Positions 11,640-16,122 of a DNA stretch of 55,163 nucleotides are shown here, one piece after another. The position numbers were made by a program, and so were the translations under genes. The DNA is from Hassallia byssoidea VB512170 (GTDB taxonomy: Bacteria > Cyanobacteriota > Cyanobacteriia > Cyanobacteriales > Nostocaceae). Below the pieces are notes generated by a model. That model did not search any database and was not told where the DNA came from. It saw nothing but the letters and a program-made list of their open reading frames with translations. The stretch is taken from contig NZ_JTCM02000040.1 in the NCBI RefSeq assembly GCF_000817785.2, positions 1 to 55,163 on the forward strand, read 5' to 3'. Numbering within the stretch: position 1 is the stretch's first letter; each line of letters starts with the position of its first letter.

Positions 11640-11716
11640 CTCTCGTACAGACGTGGGAGTGTGGAACGTCTCTACCGCGCTTGCTCGTACAGACGTTCCG
11701 GTGGAACGTCTCTACA
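11640..11716. repeat. Dispersed palindromes, AGACGTTCC/GGAACGTCT family
   Basis: Two partly decayed copies of a palindrome whose intact form is GTAGAGACGTTCC-n-GGAACGTCTCTAC. They lie just 3' of hetF. Other members are at 15265-15292, 16168-16192, 19067-19095 and 19649-19678. The hairpins could act as terminators or RNA processing sites. Confidence 0.7.
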
Positions 11717-11737: not shown

Positions 11738-14179
11738 TTACCCTTCACCTTTAACTTGTAAAAGCGATCGCCAATCTTGGATAGCCTTCTCTGTCCACAG
11801 CCAATTATTACCTAATTTATTTGGTAAAAAATTTACCGGGTCATCTTTTACCACCAATTGTCGCAGCTTGACGGCTTCAGTCATATATTGCGATCGCTTA
11901 TTCTCTGGCTGATTATGTGCAGATTTATACAAACCTAAAGCTAATCCGGCATAGGAAGTCAAAGCCTCCGGTGTCGCTACCCGCGGAGTTGCTGCTGTTG
12001 GCGTATAACCAGAGGGATTTTGCTGTTTGAGAGCCAAATTCAAGGCTTTGAACCAAGAATCATTAGCTTTATTCATATTGCCTTCTGCGTAGTAAGCAAA
12101 TCCTAAAGCGTTTGTATACAAAAGCGAGTCTGGTTTGGCTTTCACAGCAGTTTCCCAATAACGGCGGGCATCATCAACGCTGTATTTTTTGTCACCAGTT
12201 TGCATAGCTTGCCACGCTACTCGTCCTTTAAGAAAATTAACTGCCGGATCGTTAGCTTGCGATGACGGAATCAAATCGAGGGCAGCTTGTGCAGCCAAAA
12301 GTGCATTCCGCGCTGGGCTGAGTAGTTCTTCGACAGCTTGTAGCCCACCTTGCAAGTCACCCTGAACTAATTTCTGAGTAGCGGTAGCGGTGACGATTCC
12401 TGTGGGAGATGTCTTTAAGTCGATTTCTGGGGTATTATTTGGAATTGGTTGAGACTGGTTTGGAATTTCTGGTAGCTCGGAAAAGTTGGGAAATTGTCGT
12501 TGCCACAACGAACTTAAACCGATCGCTAGTGCGATCGCACCAACTCCCGCAACGCCAGCAATCGCCCACAATCGGCGTGTTGCCCGACGTGTAGCTGGTG
12601 TTTCCACTTTTTGGCGAGCTGAAGAAGGCGGGTTATTTGCATTATCCCAATCTCCCCACATCGGAGTTTCGCTATTTAGACTCATATCTCCAGGAATCGG
12701 TCTTCCCAAGATATTATCTTCTTGAGGCTTTGGTATCAATTCGGCAGTGACATAAGGTTGCTCGTTTGCTGCGTTTTGATTATCAATTTGCCGAAACAAA
12801 TCAGAAACGATCGCCGAATCTTCTTCATAGCTTGAGTCATCATACTCAATTTCATCAACCAAATCGCCCCAAGTATCTTCACCTAGCCAGTCCAAGCCAG
12901 AAGGTATCATATCCTCCATTGGTAAAGGCATGGACATATCAACAGCACTACCAGAGTAGATTGAAGTTCCCATCAACCGAGAATTGTACTCACCAAAGGA
13001 CTCGACATTTTCGCCTAAAGTAATTTCCGGTGTTAAATTACCGTTAAATTTCGGATCGAGATATAAAATTGGTAATGCCCAGTACATCTGAAGAGAACCA
13101 TAAGCAGAAATTAAGCCTTGGCGCACTCGACTGACGCACAAATCTACAGGATATCCCTGACTCAAGTTGCGGTAAAATAATTGTGTCAGTGTCAGCGCTA
13201 CTTCATCGGGAATGCGTTCTGACATTGCCAAAACGCTTCTGATACCGCGTTTCACCAAGCTTTCTGCTAAGTTGCGTTCCCCCGTATCAGCAGCCGGATC
13301 GGAGGTAGCAGTGTATGCCCCCAAACACGAGTTAAACACTGCCATTTGAATGTTATTGTTAACTAGCAAGCCTGCCAAATCGTCGCCGCTGAGAGTTTCT
13401 GTTAAACCAGTTCTGTTATTTACAAGATAAATTTCGCCGCCGTTGGGTCCTAAGTTACTATGACCGGAGTAGTGAAGAACGTGATATCGTCCTTGTTCTA
13501 AAGCTTGCGTTAATTCTTCGCGCCCTGGTTGCTCTAATAGGGTAAGTTCGATTTCTGGGAGATAATTGCCAGTTTCCGAAAAGCGTGGTGACTGACGGTG
13601 AAGTTCAGCTTGCAGTTTGACTGCTTCTAGTTTGAGTAAATCCAGACGAACTAAATCTGTAGGAGAAGCGATCGCCATTAATACTTTGATACCACCTTCT
13701 TCTAAAGGTGTTGGTATATTTGTTGATAGCAGGCGAGATGGCAGATGAATTCCGGTTTGAAACCGAGAAAAAGCAATATAAGGTCCTGTTGCCAAAGGGC
13801 GATCGCCTGCGTGCATCACTTCCCAAGGCAAACGCGCTAATCTGATATCTTTTAGTCCTAACCGCAGGCGCAATACCTCTTGCTGATGCTGGGCAATACC
13901 CTGCGCCGTAATCCAACTATCTCTGAGAGTGCCTTGAAACAGTGCGTTATAAAATTGTTGACCCAAAGCCACCAAGTTGACATTAAGAGCGATCGCATCT
14001 CCTTGCAACACCGACTTCAACGGATCATTCATCAAATGCCCCGCAGCCGTCAACCAATCAGCTACAGGCCAAGTTACTAATTCTTCTGCCAATGGCACCC
14101 CAGGCGCGACTTGTTCCGTCCGCACCAAGTAGTCATTTTGCCCTACTGGGGTTACGGAAATATGAAATTCCTGGGTCAC
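11738..14179 (-). CDS. hetF: HetF-like CHAT-domain protease, heterocyst differentiation
   Basis: An 813-residue protein with an N-terminal caspase-like CHAT domain, a cytoplasmic linker, a single membrane segment at residues 538-559 and a C-terminal helical TPR-like region (~600-800). The candidate catalytic dyad is His240 in HYSGHSN and Cys285 in FNSCLGA, spaced as expected for CHAT proteases. In Nostoc sp. PCC 7120 the essential HetF dyad is His246/Cys296, and HetF is needed for heterocyst formation and control of HetR/PatA. The gene name rests on this architecture and on the divergent NsiR1-like array immediately upstream, the same neighbourhood as in PCC 7120. Other cyanobacterial CHAT-TPR proteins exist, but the context makes HetF the best call. 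Confidence 0.88.
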   Translation of the reverse strand: MTQEFHISVTPVGQNDYLVRTEQVAPGVPLAEELVTWPVADWLTAAGHLMNDPLKSVLQGDAIALNVNLVALGQQFYNALFQGTLRDSWITAQGIAQHQQEVLRLRLGLKDIRLARLPWEVMHAGDRPLATGPYIAFSRFQTGIHLPSRLLSTNIPTPLEEGGIKVLMAIASPTDLVRLDLLKLEAVKLQAELHRQSPRFSETGNYLPEIELTLLEQPGREELTQALEQGRYHVLHYSGHSNLGPNGGEIYLVNNRTGLTETLSGDDLAGLLVNNNIQMAVFNSCLGAYTATSDPAADTGERNLAESLVKRGIRSVLAMSERIPDEVALTLTQLFYRNLSQGYPVDLCVSRVRQGLISAYGSLQMYWALPILYLDPKFNGNLTPEITLGENVESFGEYNSRLMGTSIYSGSAVDMSMPLPMEDMIPSGLDWLGEDTWGDLVDEIEYDDSSYEEDSAIVSDLFRQIDNQNAANEQPYVTAELIPKPQEDNILGRPIPGDMSLNSETPMWGDWDNANNPPSSARQKVETPATRRATRRLWAIAGVAGVGAIALAIGLSSLWQRQFPNFSELPEIPNQSQPIPNNTPEIDLKTSPTGIVTATATQKLVQGDLQGGLQAVEELLSPARNALLAAQAALDLIPSSQANDPAVNFLKGRVAWQAMQTGDKKYSVDDARRYWETAVKAKPDSLLYTNALGFAYYAEGNMNKANDSWFKALNLALKQQNPSGYTPTAATPRVATPEALTSYAGLALGLYKSAHNQPENKRSQYMTEAVKLRQLVVKDDPVNFLPNKLGNNWLWTEKAIQDWRSLLQVKGEG

Positions 14180-14330
14180 AACTTCTCCTGTTTGCCTCCT
14201 AAATCTGGTTTGAAACGCTGTTCATTTTCACGCTCTTTTGTTTCGCTTCTTCTGATACCTTAGATGCATCTTGACACTCAATGTTTCTGATTTAAGTTGT
14301 TTTGCACCTGCTCCCCTGTTTACAACTTTA

Positions 14331-14336
14331 TCCGGA
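14331..14336 (+). promoter_or_regulatory. DIF+ motif of RNA copy 1
   Basis: TCCGGA with its last base 27 nt before the conserved start of the RNA unit. The DIF+ class of differentiation-dependent promoters in PCC 7120 has this hexamer near -35. The hexamer is palindromic, so this copy, nearest to hetF, could also be read in the hetF direction. Confidence 0.75.
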
Positions 14337-14362
14337 TTGCAATCATTCCGCCCAGAACACTT

Positions 14363-14428
14363 TATTGGTAGATGCACCTTGATCTTCAATTCCCCCGGTT
14401 GGCTTTACACCCAAGTCGGGGGTTTTTT
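14363..14428 (+). ncRNA. nsiR1: NsiR1-like small RNA, copy 1
   Basis: First unit of the array and the most diverged intact one: TTATTGGTAGATGCACC, then a hairpin with CCCCCGGTTGG and an AGTCGGGGG arm, then six T. Its C/G-rich arms still pair despite several substitutions, indicating selection on the hairpin. The 5' end is inferred from the promoter spacing. It lies 184 nt from the hetF start and on the opposite strand, so a long hetF leader would be antisense to it. Confidence 0.8.
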
Positions 14429-14580
14429 ATGCCTAACCATGAGCGCAACAATTTTTAACAGACTAAATTTAGCTGTGATAATGGCGTCTAAATTTATCTT
14501 ATTTACTAAGTATACCCGGAACTACCACCAAATAAAGTTTTGTTTTACACATACTTTTCATCTCCGATTTTCTGAATTTA

Positions 14581-14586
14581 TCCGGA
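14581..14586 (+). promoter_or_regulatory. DIF+ motif of RNA copy 2
   Basis: TCCGGA, last base 27 nt before the conserved AATTGG start of copy 2. Confidence 0.75.
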
Positions 14587-14612
14587 GCATGATTGTTAAA
14601 CCGAGAACAAAT

Positions 14613-14674
14613 AATTGGTAGATGCACCCTAATAACTCACTTCCCTAGTTGGCTTACACCACTGGGGAATTTTT
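14613..14674 (+). ncRNA. nsiR1: NsiR1-like small RNA, copy 2
   Basis: Unit begins AATTGGTAGATGCACC and ends with a CCCTAGTTGG / ACTGGGG hairpin and a T-run to 14674. It is separated from copy 1 by 250 bp, the second-largest gap of the array, which holds no recognisable unit apart from an isolated CCCGGA near 14514. Confidence 0.85.
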
Positions 14675-14717
14675 GTGTTTAATCAAACAAAAATATATTT
14701 TCATACCAGTAAAATTA

Positions 14718-14723
14718 TTCTGA
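14718..14723 (+). promoter_or_regulatory. Degenerate DIF+ motif of RNA copy 3
   Basis: At the exact position where the other copies have TCCGGA, copy 3 has TTCTGA. The 27-nt spacing is kept, so this is probably a decayed promoter element. Confidence 0.5.
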
Positions 14724-14749
14724 TGCTTATAGTTAATTTTAGAACATTT

Positions 14750-14810
14750 AATTAGTAGATGCACCCTGATAACTCAATTCCCTAGTTGGCGTAAGCCAAT
14801 AGTGGTTTTT
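14750..14810 (+). ncRNA. nsiR1: NsiR1-like small RNA, copy 3 (degenerate promoter and terminator)
   Basis: Body AATTAGTAGATGCACC followed by the conserved CTGATAACTCA. The terminal hairpin is weakened (CCCTAGTTGGC against AATAGTGG), and the -35 hexamer is TTCTGA. Both changes suggest this copy is poorly expressed or not differentiation-controlled. Confidence 0.65.
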
Positions 14811-14849
14811 CTTATTTTATAAAAATAATCACATCTTAGACATATACTA

Positions 14850-14855
14850 TCCGGA
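14850..14855 (+). promoter_or_regulatory. DIF+ motif of RNA copy 4
   Basis: TCCGGA, last base 27 nt before the conserved start of copy 4. Confidence 0.75.
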
Positions 14856-14881
14856 TGATGTTAGTTAGCTATAGAACAACT

Positions 14882-14944
14882 AATTGGTAGATGCACCCTG
14901 ATAACTCACTCCCCTAGTTGGCTTACGCTTACTGGGGGATTTTT
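14882..14944 (+). ncRNA. nsiR1: NsiR1-like small RNA, copy 4
   Basis: Consensus body from AATTGGTAGATGCACC through CTGATAACTCACTCCCC. The hairpin loop reads GTTGGCTTACGCTTA, and the arms CCCCTAG and CTGGGGG are kept, followed by ATTTTT. The T-run ends at 14944. Confidence 0.87.
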
Positions 14945-15027
14945 GTCTTTTTGACACATTTGTTAAAACCGATGTTGATACTAGATACTTGGTAGCAGCA
15001 CAAACTGAGTTGATGTTCTTAATTTTA

Positions 15028-15033
15028 TCCGGA
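15028..15033 (+). promoter_or_regulatory. DIF+ motif of RNA copy 5
   Basis: TCCGGA, last base 27 nt before the conserved start of copy 5. The flanks (TTTATCCGGA and CATACTG) are shared with copies 6 and 7. Confidence 0.75.
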
Positions 15034-15059
15034 ACATACTGCTTTCTCTAAGAACAGTT

Positions 15060-15123
15060 AATTGGTAGATGCACCCTGATAACTCACCCCCCTGGTTGGT
15101 TGCCACCCGCTGGGGGATTTTTT
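15060..15123 (+). ncRNA. nsiR1: NsiR1-like small RNA, copy 5
   Basis: Consensus body. The hairpin reads CCCCCCTGGTTGG against CCCGCTGGGGG, a longer GC arm than its neighbours, followed by ATTTTTT. It precedes the only stretch of the array invaded by unrelated dispersed palindromes. Confidence 0.87.
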
Positions 15124-15264
15124 CTTTGGTATCTTAATTAACATTATTTTCAAGTTGTCAACTTAGTGGCGATAGAAATATTTCTTAGTAATACTTTACG
15201 CGCACAGATTTTTCACTTCTTTAATCAATAGAACAGCCAACAACGCAAATTTTACAAGGAAAAA

Positions 15265-15346
15265 CGTAAAGACGTTGCGGTGAAACGTCTCTACTCGTAG
15301 TAAGCGATTCATCGCTTGTTTGAAGCGATGAATCGCTTACTACGTG
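15265..15346. repeat. Dispersed palindromes inserted inside the small-RNA array
   Basis: A member of the AGACGTT/AACGTCTCTAC family (15265-15292) is followed by a long perfect inverted repeat, GTAGTAAGCGATTCATCGC on one arm (15298-15346), and a T-run. It enlarges the spacing between copies 5 and 6 to 345 bp, so it looks like an insertion into the array. Confidence 0.7.
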
Positions 15347-15372
15347 CTTTTTTTAAAAGTTCCTCAATTTTA

Positions 15373-15378
15373 TCCGGA
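15373..15378 (+). promoter_or_regulatory. DIF+ motif of RNA copy 6
   Basis: TCCGGA, last base 27 nt before the conserved start of copy 6. Confidence 0.75.
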
Positions 15379-15404
15379 GTGTACTGGTTTCTCTTTGAAC
15401 AATT

Positions 15405-15466
15405 AATTGGTAGATGCACCCTGATAACTCACTCCCCTAGTTGGTTTATACCACTGGGGGATTTTT
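15405..15466 (+). ncRNA. nsiR1: NsiR1-like small RNA, copy 6
   Basis: Consensus body and hairpin (CCCCTAGTTGG against CCACTGGGGG) with ATTTTT ending at 15466. It lies just downstream of the inserted palindromes but keeps its own promoter hexamer, so its expression need not be affected. Confidence 0.87.
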
Positions 15467-15528
15467 GTATCTTTAGCAATACACTGAGTGGAGGAGGAAA
15501 ACATTCCTCAACAGTTTCCTCAATTTTT

Positions 15529-15534
15529 TCCGGA
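15529..15534 (+). promoter_or_regulatory. DIF+ motif of RNA copy 7
   Basis: TCCGGA, last base 27 nt before the conserved start of copy 7. Confidence 0.75.
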
Positions 15535-15560
15535 GCATACTGGTTTCTCTAGGAACAAGT

Positions 15561-15621
15561 AATTGGTAGATGCACCCTGATAACTCACCCCCTAGTTGGC
15601 TTACACCACTGGGGGTTTTTT
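15561..15621 (+). ncRNA. nsiR1: NsiR1-like small RNA, copy 7
   Basis: Consensus body, one base shorter in the C-run before the hairpin (ACCCCCTAG). The hairpin ends GGGGG directly followed by six T. Confidence 0.87.
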
Positions 15622-15652
15622 ATGACAAATAACAACTTTATACACAATTTTA

Positions 15653-15658
15653 TCCGGA
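15653..15658 (+). promoter_or_regulatory. DIF+ motif of RNA copy 8
   Basis: TCCGGA, last base 27 nt before the conserved start of copy 8. The sequence between motif and start differs from copies 5-7, but the length does not. Confidence 0.75.
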
Positions 15659-15684
15659 GGACTGTGTATAACTTGAGAACAAGT

Positions 15685-15748
15685 AATTGGTAGATGCACC
15701 CTGATAACTCACTCCCCTAGTTGGTTTATACCTGCTAGGGGGTTTTTT
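15685..15748 (+). ncRNA. nsiR1: NsiR1-like small RNA, copy 8
   Basis: Last unit of the array. The hairpin has compensated arms: CCCCTAG pairs with CTAGGGGG, a longer stem than in other copies, then six T. It is 57 nt upstream of the thioredoxin-like gene on the same strand, so read-through could reach that gene. Confidence 0.87.
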
Positions 15749-15804
15749 ATGGATTTGCTACATGCTAAAATTCCCTTAGGTATGCCAAAATCTTAAGCAA
15801 GTCC

Positions 15805-16122
15805 ATGCAATTAGCTGTAATTAAATTCTCTTCAGAAGACTGCGGCATCTGCCACAAGATGTCTTTTTATGACCAAAAGGTGGCAGAAGAACTAGGTTTG
15901 CAATTTATAGATGTAAAAATGCAAGACACAGCTACTTACCGCAAGTATCGCAAGATTTTGCTAAATCAATATCCCGATAAATCAGAAATGGGATGGCCCA
16001 CCTACATTGTCTGTGATTCACCAGAAGGAGAATTTCAGATTTTGGGCGAGGTTAAAGGTGGTCATCCCAAAGGTGAATTTAGAAGTCGTCTGCAAGCAGT
16101 TTTGAATTCTGAAGAAAAGTAG
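15805..16122 (+). CDS. Thioredoxin-family protein
   Basis: A 105-residue single thioredoxin-fold domain. The active-site motif is CGIC (in EDCGICHKM), and the cis-proline loop is GWPTYIVCDSPEG. There is no signal peptide, so it is cytosolic. The length equals a bare thioredoxin, but the sequence differs from TrxA (no WCGPC). An adjacent small-RNA array with terminators separates it from hetF. Its TAG stop is the start of a GTAGTAAGC-family repeat. Confidence 0.85.
   Translation: MQLAVIKFSSEDCGICHKMSFYDQKVAEELGLQFIDVKMQDTATYRKYRKILLNQYPDKSEMGWPTYIVCDSPEGEFQILGEVKGGHPKGEFRSRLQAVLNSEEK

Follow-up and report, generated by a model that had tools for sequence, protein, structure and literature searches.

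In Nostoc sp. PCC 7120, the small RNA (sRNA) NsiR1 is described as being encoded upstream of hetF by a tandem array of 12 copies that have individual DIF1 promoters; the seven central copies are identical (PMC9045159). NsiR1.1 is reported to be antisense to the hetF leader and to inhibit hetF translation, and NsiR1.4 to target the HetP homologue alr3234 at its start region (PMC9045159). Transcription of hetF starts at -256, inside nsiR1.2 (PMC8406250), and a 12-repeat array is also described upstream of hetF in Nodularia (PMC3610870). Here, a stretch of 55,163 nucleotides (nt) from Hassallia byssoidea VB512170 (contig NZ_JTCM02000040.1, positions 1 to 55,163; hereafter the window) was analyzed, in which an eight-copy NsiR1-like array divergent from hetF had been predicted from the DNA letters. 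The array is very probably the NsiR1 array of a heterocyst-type cyanobacterium, each copy constituting a separate sRNA gene of ~60 nt with its own DIF1 promoter and acting in cis or in trans as proposed below. The array, its promoters, and the hetF antisense layout have already been described in Nostoc PCC 7120. The present array is typical of its group and provides a further, well-conserved example of a known regulator; the part of most consequence is the occurrence of the same seed at other loci, under two kinds of promoter.

Identity and anatomy of the array

In a covariance search with the Rfam NsiR1 model (RF02399), all eight copies scored over the gathering score of 39 (42.9-68.9 bits) and matched the whole model. 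The divergent neighbour is HetF (NCBI equivalog NF045509, 1388 bits versus a cut-off of 1200), and the array corresponds to NsiR1 upstream of and divergent from hetF, in the layout published for Nostoc PCC 7120. The eight units are direct repeats on the plus strand, located between hetF and a gene for a 105-aa protein, and their start-to-start spacing is irregular (250, 137, 132, 178, 345, 156, and 124 nt), as predicted.

The predicted invariance of the promoter geometry also holds: in all eight copies, 26 bases separate the end of the upstream hexamer, which is TTCTGA in copy 3 and TCCGGA in the other seven, from the proposed start base (a distance of 27 positions), and GAACA is present on the -10 side. 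The pattern TCCGGA-N(27-32)-GGTAGATGCACC occurs seven times in the window versus none in 100 shuffles. The RNA itself probably starts 3 nt downstream of the proposed base: the first base of the Rfam model is the U of UGGUAG, 3 nt past AATT. This places the hexamer at -35 to -30 and matches the -35 place described for DIF1 (PMC6133370).

The units are less uniform than the original prediction had stated. The shared sequence AATTGGTAGATGCACC is exact in six of the eight copies, with TATTGG in copy 1 and AATTAG in copy 3, whereas CTGATAACTCA is replaced by TTGATCTTCAA in copy 1 and by CTAATAACTCA in copy 2, being exact in the other six; the C4-G5 hairpin, claimed for every unit, is absent from copies 2 and 3. 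As expected for NsiR1, a terminator hairpin followed by a T-run is found at ~60 nt. Its fold energy ranges from -16.1 to -20.6 kcal/mol in seven copies, and is -10.9 kcal/mol in copy 3. The folds of the eight RNAs are not outstanding relative to shuffles (z of -3.0 in one copy, -1.4 to -2.4 in four, and above -1 in three). Within the eight RNAs, a simple terminator scan listed only the hairpin of copy 3; the stems of the others are bulged and were probably missed for that reason, as the scan permits no bulges.

Conservation across relatives

The array is well conserved among the named hetF loci, which are the best 80 of the 157 detected. A seed copy lies upstream in 78 of the 80 and a seed copy with the hexamer in 77; one of the two loci without a seed copy has just 186 nt upstream. 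Among 433 copies from the named loci and the window, a set restricted beforehand to those whose hexamer differs from TCCGGA at no more than 2 positions, the gap between hexamer and GGTAG is 30 nt in 359, 29 nt in 45, 31 nt in 25, and of another length in 4 (i.e., 29-31 nt in 429), and the hexamer is exactly TCCGGA in 372. In searches with strict filters across 388 genomes of the order, RF02399 gave a match at E<=0.001 in 280 and above the cut-off in 256; an E. coli control also gives a signal below the cut-off, so weak matches can be due to chance. The gene for the 105-aa protein borders the far side of the array in several relatives too. In one genome (G330; loci L218 and L219) the array is split, one part lying beside hetF and the other adjoining the 105-aa gene at a distance of ~2.95 Mb.

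A conserved element in the hetF leader

The DNA separating copy 1 from hetF contains an element (Table 1) whose messenger RNA includes TGCATCTA, complementary to the NsiR1 seed. TAGATGCA is exact at the leader position in 69 of the 80 named loci; the 11 others include two with no normal array (L116 and L118), two with the element displaced (L063 and L097), and one cut short (L047). In many Nostoc leaders the adjoining GTTATCAG is also complementary to CUGAUAAC, and of the NsiR1:leader duplexes that avoid the antisense overlap, the best maps to the element in 63 of 78 loci. Letter frequencies of the leader were anchored on TAGATG, are hence biased for those letters, and were not used as a count. 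In some members of the family, the element is likely an additional site for NsiR1; it is possibly the remnant of a lost NsiR1 copy. Interpretation of TTAGATGCATCTTGACACTCA (14260-14280) as a ninth NsiR1 copy was rejected: on visual inspection it lacks both a correctly spaced hexamer and a terminator, and it forms part of the conserved hetF-leader element.

Two other readings, which we hold possible though not probable, are that the element is a short upstream open reading frame running into the hetF start, or that it acts as DNA within the hetF promoter. In 39 leaders, a 29-codon frame that starts with ATGCATCTA runs into the hetF start, and the conservation runs for tens of bases on either side of the element, as either version would have it. 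However, the ratio of nonsynonymous to synonymous polymorphism (pN/pS) of the frame is 0.72 (32 distinct sequences), similar to the other five frames (0.54-0.96), in contrast to 0.20 for the first 29 hetF codons; the shift is a multiple of three in only 10 of the 23 leaders with the element off its commonest position, and in the window the frame stops after 13 codons. The upstream frame, lacking a coding signature, was rejected as a candidate gene; a role as DNA element may still hold, and pairing of the element with NsiR1 is the more likely reading.

Further loci with the NsiR1 seed

RF02399 has ten matches in the Hassallia genome, comprising the array and two solitary copies, both above the gathering score. 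One (C115:65533-65583, i.e., L011:7534-7584; 51.5 bits) lies between lgt and cobM and has a DIF1 hexamer; the other (C79:19383-19440, i.e., L012:7384-7441; 45.5 bits) lies beside an exoD homologue, where two relatives have 2 or 3 tandem copies. Both contain TGGTAGATGCACCCT and a hairpin with a T-run, with TCCGGA 28 nt or TCCTGA 29 nt upstream. A seed pattern search allowing up to 3 mismatches returned 49 places, versus 9 for the reversed pattern, among them three more exact or near-exact seeds between gatB and argJ. These belong to three tandem sRNA-like units with the seed GUAGAUGCACCCU (C194:42560-42991, i.e., L211:6561-6992), which have no DIF1 hexamer; they have a TATTAT or TATACT box and, in two of the three, a GGGG..CCCC block. 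At the gathering score, RF02399 has no match in this region or in its Fischerella counterpart (L162), and a scan with the sigma70 consensus found no promoter at positions 6430-7110 of L211 (shuffles: mean 1.4).

The positions of these loci are conserved. The C115 type adjoins lgt and/or cobM in Hassallia and in genomes from five families, counting that of Hassallia, and the gatB type lies between gatB and argJ also in Fischerella PCC 9431 and other genomes. Separate models were built for the gatB type (R1) and the lgt type (R2). Among the best model matches, which are not a random draw, gatB or argJ is in reach at 25 of 30 R1 loci (both at 16; of the five others, three have full flanks and two are on short contigs), and lgt or cobM at 26 of 28 R2 loci (both at 18). 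The two types differ in their promoters: a DIF1 hexamer is present in 35 of 36 copies at R2 loci, versus none within 1 mismatch in the 41 seed copies at R1 loci. All 41 gatB-type copies have a TATAAT-like box (at least 4 of 6 positions) shortly before the seed and 27 have the GGGG..CCCC block, both being counts without a control. Model R1 matches 101 of 147 genomes at E<=0.001; the 98 of 147 for R2 do not count the lgt class, as R2 cross-matches ordinary NsiR1 copies. Six R1 genomes (G017, G067, G085, G102, G119, and G134) are outside the 280 with an NsiR1 match under strict filters, and have their copies between gatB and argJ with a different upstream block.

The gatB-type hairpin shows signs of conserved pairing. 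In 56 aligned matches (48 distinct), 95.8% of the pairs are standard and 18 changes are two-sided, although the alignment was fitted to the model and leans towards structure. Standard pairs, two-sided changes, and the covariation score exceed those of 500 shuffles and of all slid versions, whereas two other measures are equalled by 29 and 91 of the 500 shuffles.

Several further observations concern the solitary copies. Genome G003 has four tandem copies of the lgt/cobM type. In two genomes, the gatB-linked and lgt/cobM-linked seed RNAs are ~2.4 kb (L324, G021) and ~1.2 kb (L326, G048) apart, and this closeness hints at local duplication as their origin. No further TCCGGA was found from -700 to +400 nt around the 11 solitary copies checked, and the PCC 7120 pair NsiR8/4547237r could therefore not be matched. 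In the NsiR1 literature, as far as it was accessible, the only candidate for an extra seed locus is RNA162 of Limnospira (PMC8400943), and solitary copies may have been noticed earlier.

Taken together, we lean slightly towards the existence of an older sRNA family, spread over several loci and defined by its 5' seed GUAGAUGCACCCUGAU, of which NsiR1 would be the heterocyst-specific branch. At least four conserved loci have this seed, under DIF1 promoters (the hetF array, lgt/cobM, and exoD) and, at gatB/argJ, under a putative non-DIF1 promoter consisting of a -10-like box and, in most copies, a GGGGTGACACCCC-like block. As the gatB/argJ branch falls outside Rfam NsiR1 and is found in genomes without an NsiR1 match, the seed regulon would predate heterocysts.

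Candidate targets

Complements of the seed are found in two groups of leaders, those of a neutral invertase (Glyco_hydro_100; invB for short) and of a RecQ-family helicase (TIGR00614, 342 bits, cut-off 220). Both were chosen because the Hassallia genome has a match there, and the relatives are not independent; G372 (weak match) and G333 (fragments) were left out of the invertase and RecQ-family sets, respectively. The seed-complement 8-mer is present in the invertase leader at 14 of 29 loci, lying ~45-60 nt upstream of the start codon where present, versus a mean of 0.24 for shuffled leaders (largest 2 in 300) and 0.06 for permuted seeds (largest 11 of 29; none of 2000 reach 14). In Hassallia, a duplex of NsiR1 with the invertase leader (C163, upstream of 9214) is predicted to comprise 16 pairs flanking two mismatches in its centre (-26.3 kcal/mol); in a genome of the same genus (G303) the site is degraded. 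At 6 of 29 loci the RecQ-family leader has the 8-mer, compared with a mean of 0.14 and a maximum of 2 for shuffled leaders and a maximum of 4 for permuted seeds, and in Hassallia a 13-nt exact seed complement, GGGTGCATCTACC (C218:39642-39653), lies 11 nt upstream of the helicase start codon. Both sites constitute predicted NsiR1 targets, weakened by ascertainment and shared ancestry.

Judging by the titles of references, Nostoc PCC 7120 reportedly possesses one invertase specific to heterocysts and an isoform without which diazotrophic growth fails. The invertase leader site would link NsiR1 to sucrose use in heterocysts.

Two other candidates were rejected. HetP-family genes have the seed-complement 8-mer in none of 30 leaders of 110 nt, which represent 30 of 66 matches, one per genome, with paralogues left out; CATCTACC lies ~139 nt upstream of the start of the Hassallia HetP-family gene, beyond the 110 nt counted. 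The 30 family genomes searched have one HetP-family match in 13 cases (Hassallia included) and two to four in the others. Upstream of a 325-aa gene (C13), the seed complement is present in most of 30 relatives, yet by eye it is inside the last codons of the upstream gene; its conservation can therefore be driven by the protein, and it was dropped as evidence.

The extra seed loci may instead encode unrelated RNAs that share a 5' protein-binding or processing motif and have no common target set, which seems somewhat unlikely. Consistent with this, the shared part comprises only the first ~16 nt, the hairpins differ, and the consensus scan is without a sigma70 promoter at the Hassallia gatB/argJ copies. 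However, every class has the seed at its predicted 5' end, followed by a hairpin and a T-run, and the seed complements in the invertase and RecQ-family leaders far outnumber the shuffled means given above.

Divergence of copies 1 and 3

The suggestion that copies 1 and 3 diverged towards different roles holds better for the former than for the latter. In the 74 loci (counting the window) whose first copy lies 150-400 nt from hetF on its upstream side, nt 11-17 read CCTTGAT in 68 of the 74 first copies versus 2 of 342 other copies. Loci L215-L218 and L223 agree with the first-copy variant (5/5, by eye), whereas the most distant, L171 and L176, do not. At the level of sequence, copy 1 is a position-specific variant conserved across genera, in line with the NsiR1.1/NsiR1.4 split in PCC 7120. 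The variant is present in the window, and its transcript would overlap the hetF leader in antisense if hetF transcription started as far upstream as in PCC 7120 (-256). Copy 3, with AGTAGATG (a changed seed), TTCTGA, and its weak hairpin, probably fits decay better than a new role. That the array serves dosage only, its copies being equivalent, their divergence drift, and their multiplicity a means to raise RNA output quickly, is unlikely: GGTAGATGCACC with TCCGGA in 7/8 copies and CCCTGATAAC at nt 11-20 in 303 of 342 non-first copies of relatives agree with it, but the retention of CCTTGAT in first copies is not expected from drift, and NsiR1.1 and NsiR1.4 are reported to differ in their effect on alr3234 in PCC 7120 (PMC9045159).

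Proposed mode of action

By extension from PCC 7120, the copies would be switched on together as a cell starts to become a heterocyst. Copy 1, transcribed against the hetF leader, would block hetF translation in cis, while the other copies, through their common 5' seed UGGUAGAUGCACCCUGAUAAC, may act in trans on messenger RNAs with a complement in the leader. Among a broader group of sRNA-like genes that have this seed (lgt/cobM, exoD, and gatB/argJ), the array would be the member present in multiple copies, raising in proheterocysts the dose acting on a seed regulon of hetF, the invertase, the RecQ-family helicase, and others.

Several observations weigh against this scheme. In PCC 7120, replacement or removal of the nsiR1.1 -10 box is reported to leave a hetF promoter-gfp fusion little changed (PMC8406250); such a small change is still compatible with translational control of hetF. 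The leader duplex beats shuffled leaders at p<=0.05 in only 22 of 78 loci and shuffled sRNAs in 15 of 78. A required role of the leader site is disfavoured by six loci (L067, L086, L100, L108, L117, and L122) that combine a normal array with a changed site, and by seven further hetF starts, at which TAGATGCATC is exact in one, has 1 mismatch in one, 2 mismatches in one, and at least 3 in four. Finally, the single HetP-family gene seen in the Hassallia genome lies beside a peptidase-C39 ABC exporter, as expected for hetC-hetP; a second HetP-family gene of the alr3234 kind was thus not found in this genome, and the published commitment target may be missing from it.

If one seed is indeed shared by heterocyst-specific and other sRNA genes, NsiR1 knock-down or overexpression would affect a regulon common to them, and it would become directly testable how a cell-type-specific regulator arose from a general one.

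Features of the locus

The array and its flanks are listed in Table 1. Between copies 5 and 6 (15267-15343), the window contains two short palindromic repeats, one with a 20-bp stem with AAGCGATGAATCGCTT and one with a GTAGAGACGTTT stem; words of the latter recur near 11665, 16172, 19067, and 19650.

Table 1. Coordinates of the NsiR1 array and its flanking features in the window
Feature	Position	Strand	Remarks
hetF (CHAT-domain, cell division protein HetF)	11738..14179	-	GTG start at 14179; NF045509 equivalog, 1388 bits
Conserved hetF-leader element	14252..14280	-	plus strand CTGATACCTTAGATGCATCTTGACACTCA; exact TAGATGCA in 69/80 named hetF leaders
DIF1 hexamer TCCGGA, copy 1	14331..14336	+	pattern, spacing
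NsiR1 copy 1, conserved first-copy variant (CACCTTGATCTTCAA)	14366..14430	+	48.6 bits
DIF1 hexamer, copy 2	14581..14586	+	pattern, spacing
NsiR1 copy 2	14616..14676	+	62.6 bits
Degenerate hexamer TTCTGA, copy 3	14718..14723	+	spacing
NsiR1 copy 3, probably decaying (AGTAGATG, weak hairpin)	14753..14813	+	42.9 bits
DIF1 hexamer, copy 4	14850..14855	+	pattern, spacing
NsiR1 copy 4	14885..14946	+	67.0 bits
DIF1 hexamer, copy 5	15028..15033	+	pattern, spacing
NsiR1 copy 5	15063..15124	+	65.5 bits
DIF1 hexamer, copy 6	15373..15378	+	pattern, spacing
NsiR1 copy 6	15408..15468	+	66.6 bits
DIF1 hexamer, copy 7	15529..15534	+	pattern, spacing
NsiR1 copy 7	15564..15623	+	68.9 bits
DIF1 hexamer, copy 8	15653..15658	+	pattern, spacing
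NsiR1 copy 8	15688..15749	+	67.0 bits
105-aa protein, far-side array flank	15805..16122	+	thioredoxin-like by eye; no family above its cut-off

Comparison with known systems

Two described RNAs resemble the solitary copies or NsiR1 itself. The predicted sRNA 4547237r of PCC 7120 (51 nt, with homologs in 12 of 27 heterocystous genomes; PMC4734099) is close in size to the lgt/cobM class. RNA162 (57 nt) of Limnospira indica PCC 8005, a cyanobacterium reported to form no heterocysts, is described as NsiR1-like (PMC8400943). Relative to NsiR1 of PCC 7120, the window array has 8 copies instead of 12, one of them with TTCTGA and a weak hairpin, and a single HetP-family gene was detected in the Hassallia genome. 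As in PCC 7120, however, the locus is an array of ~60-nt sRNA genes divergent from hetF with individual DIF1 promoters, in which the central copies are alike and the divergent first copy would be antisense to the hetF leader.

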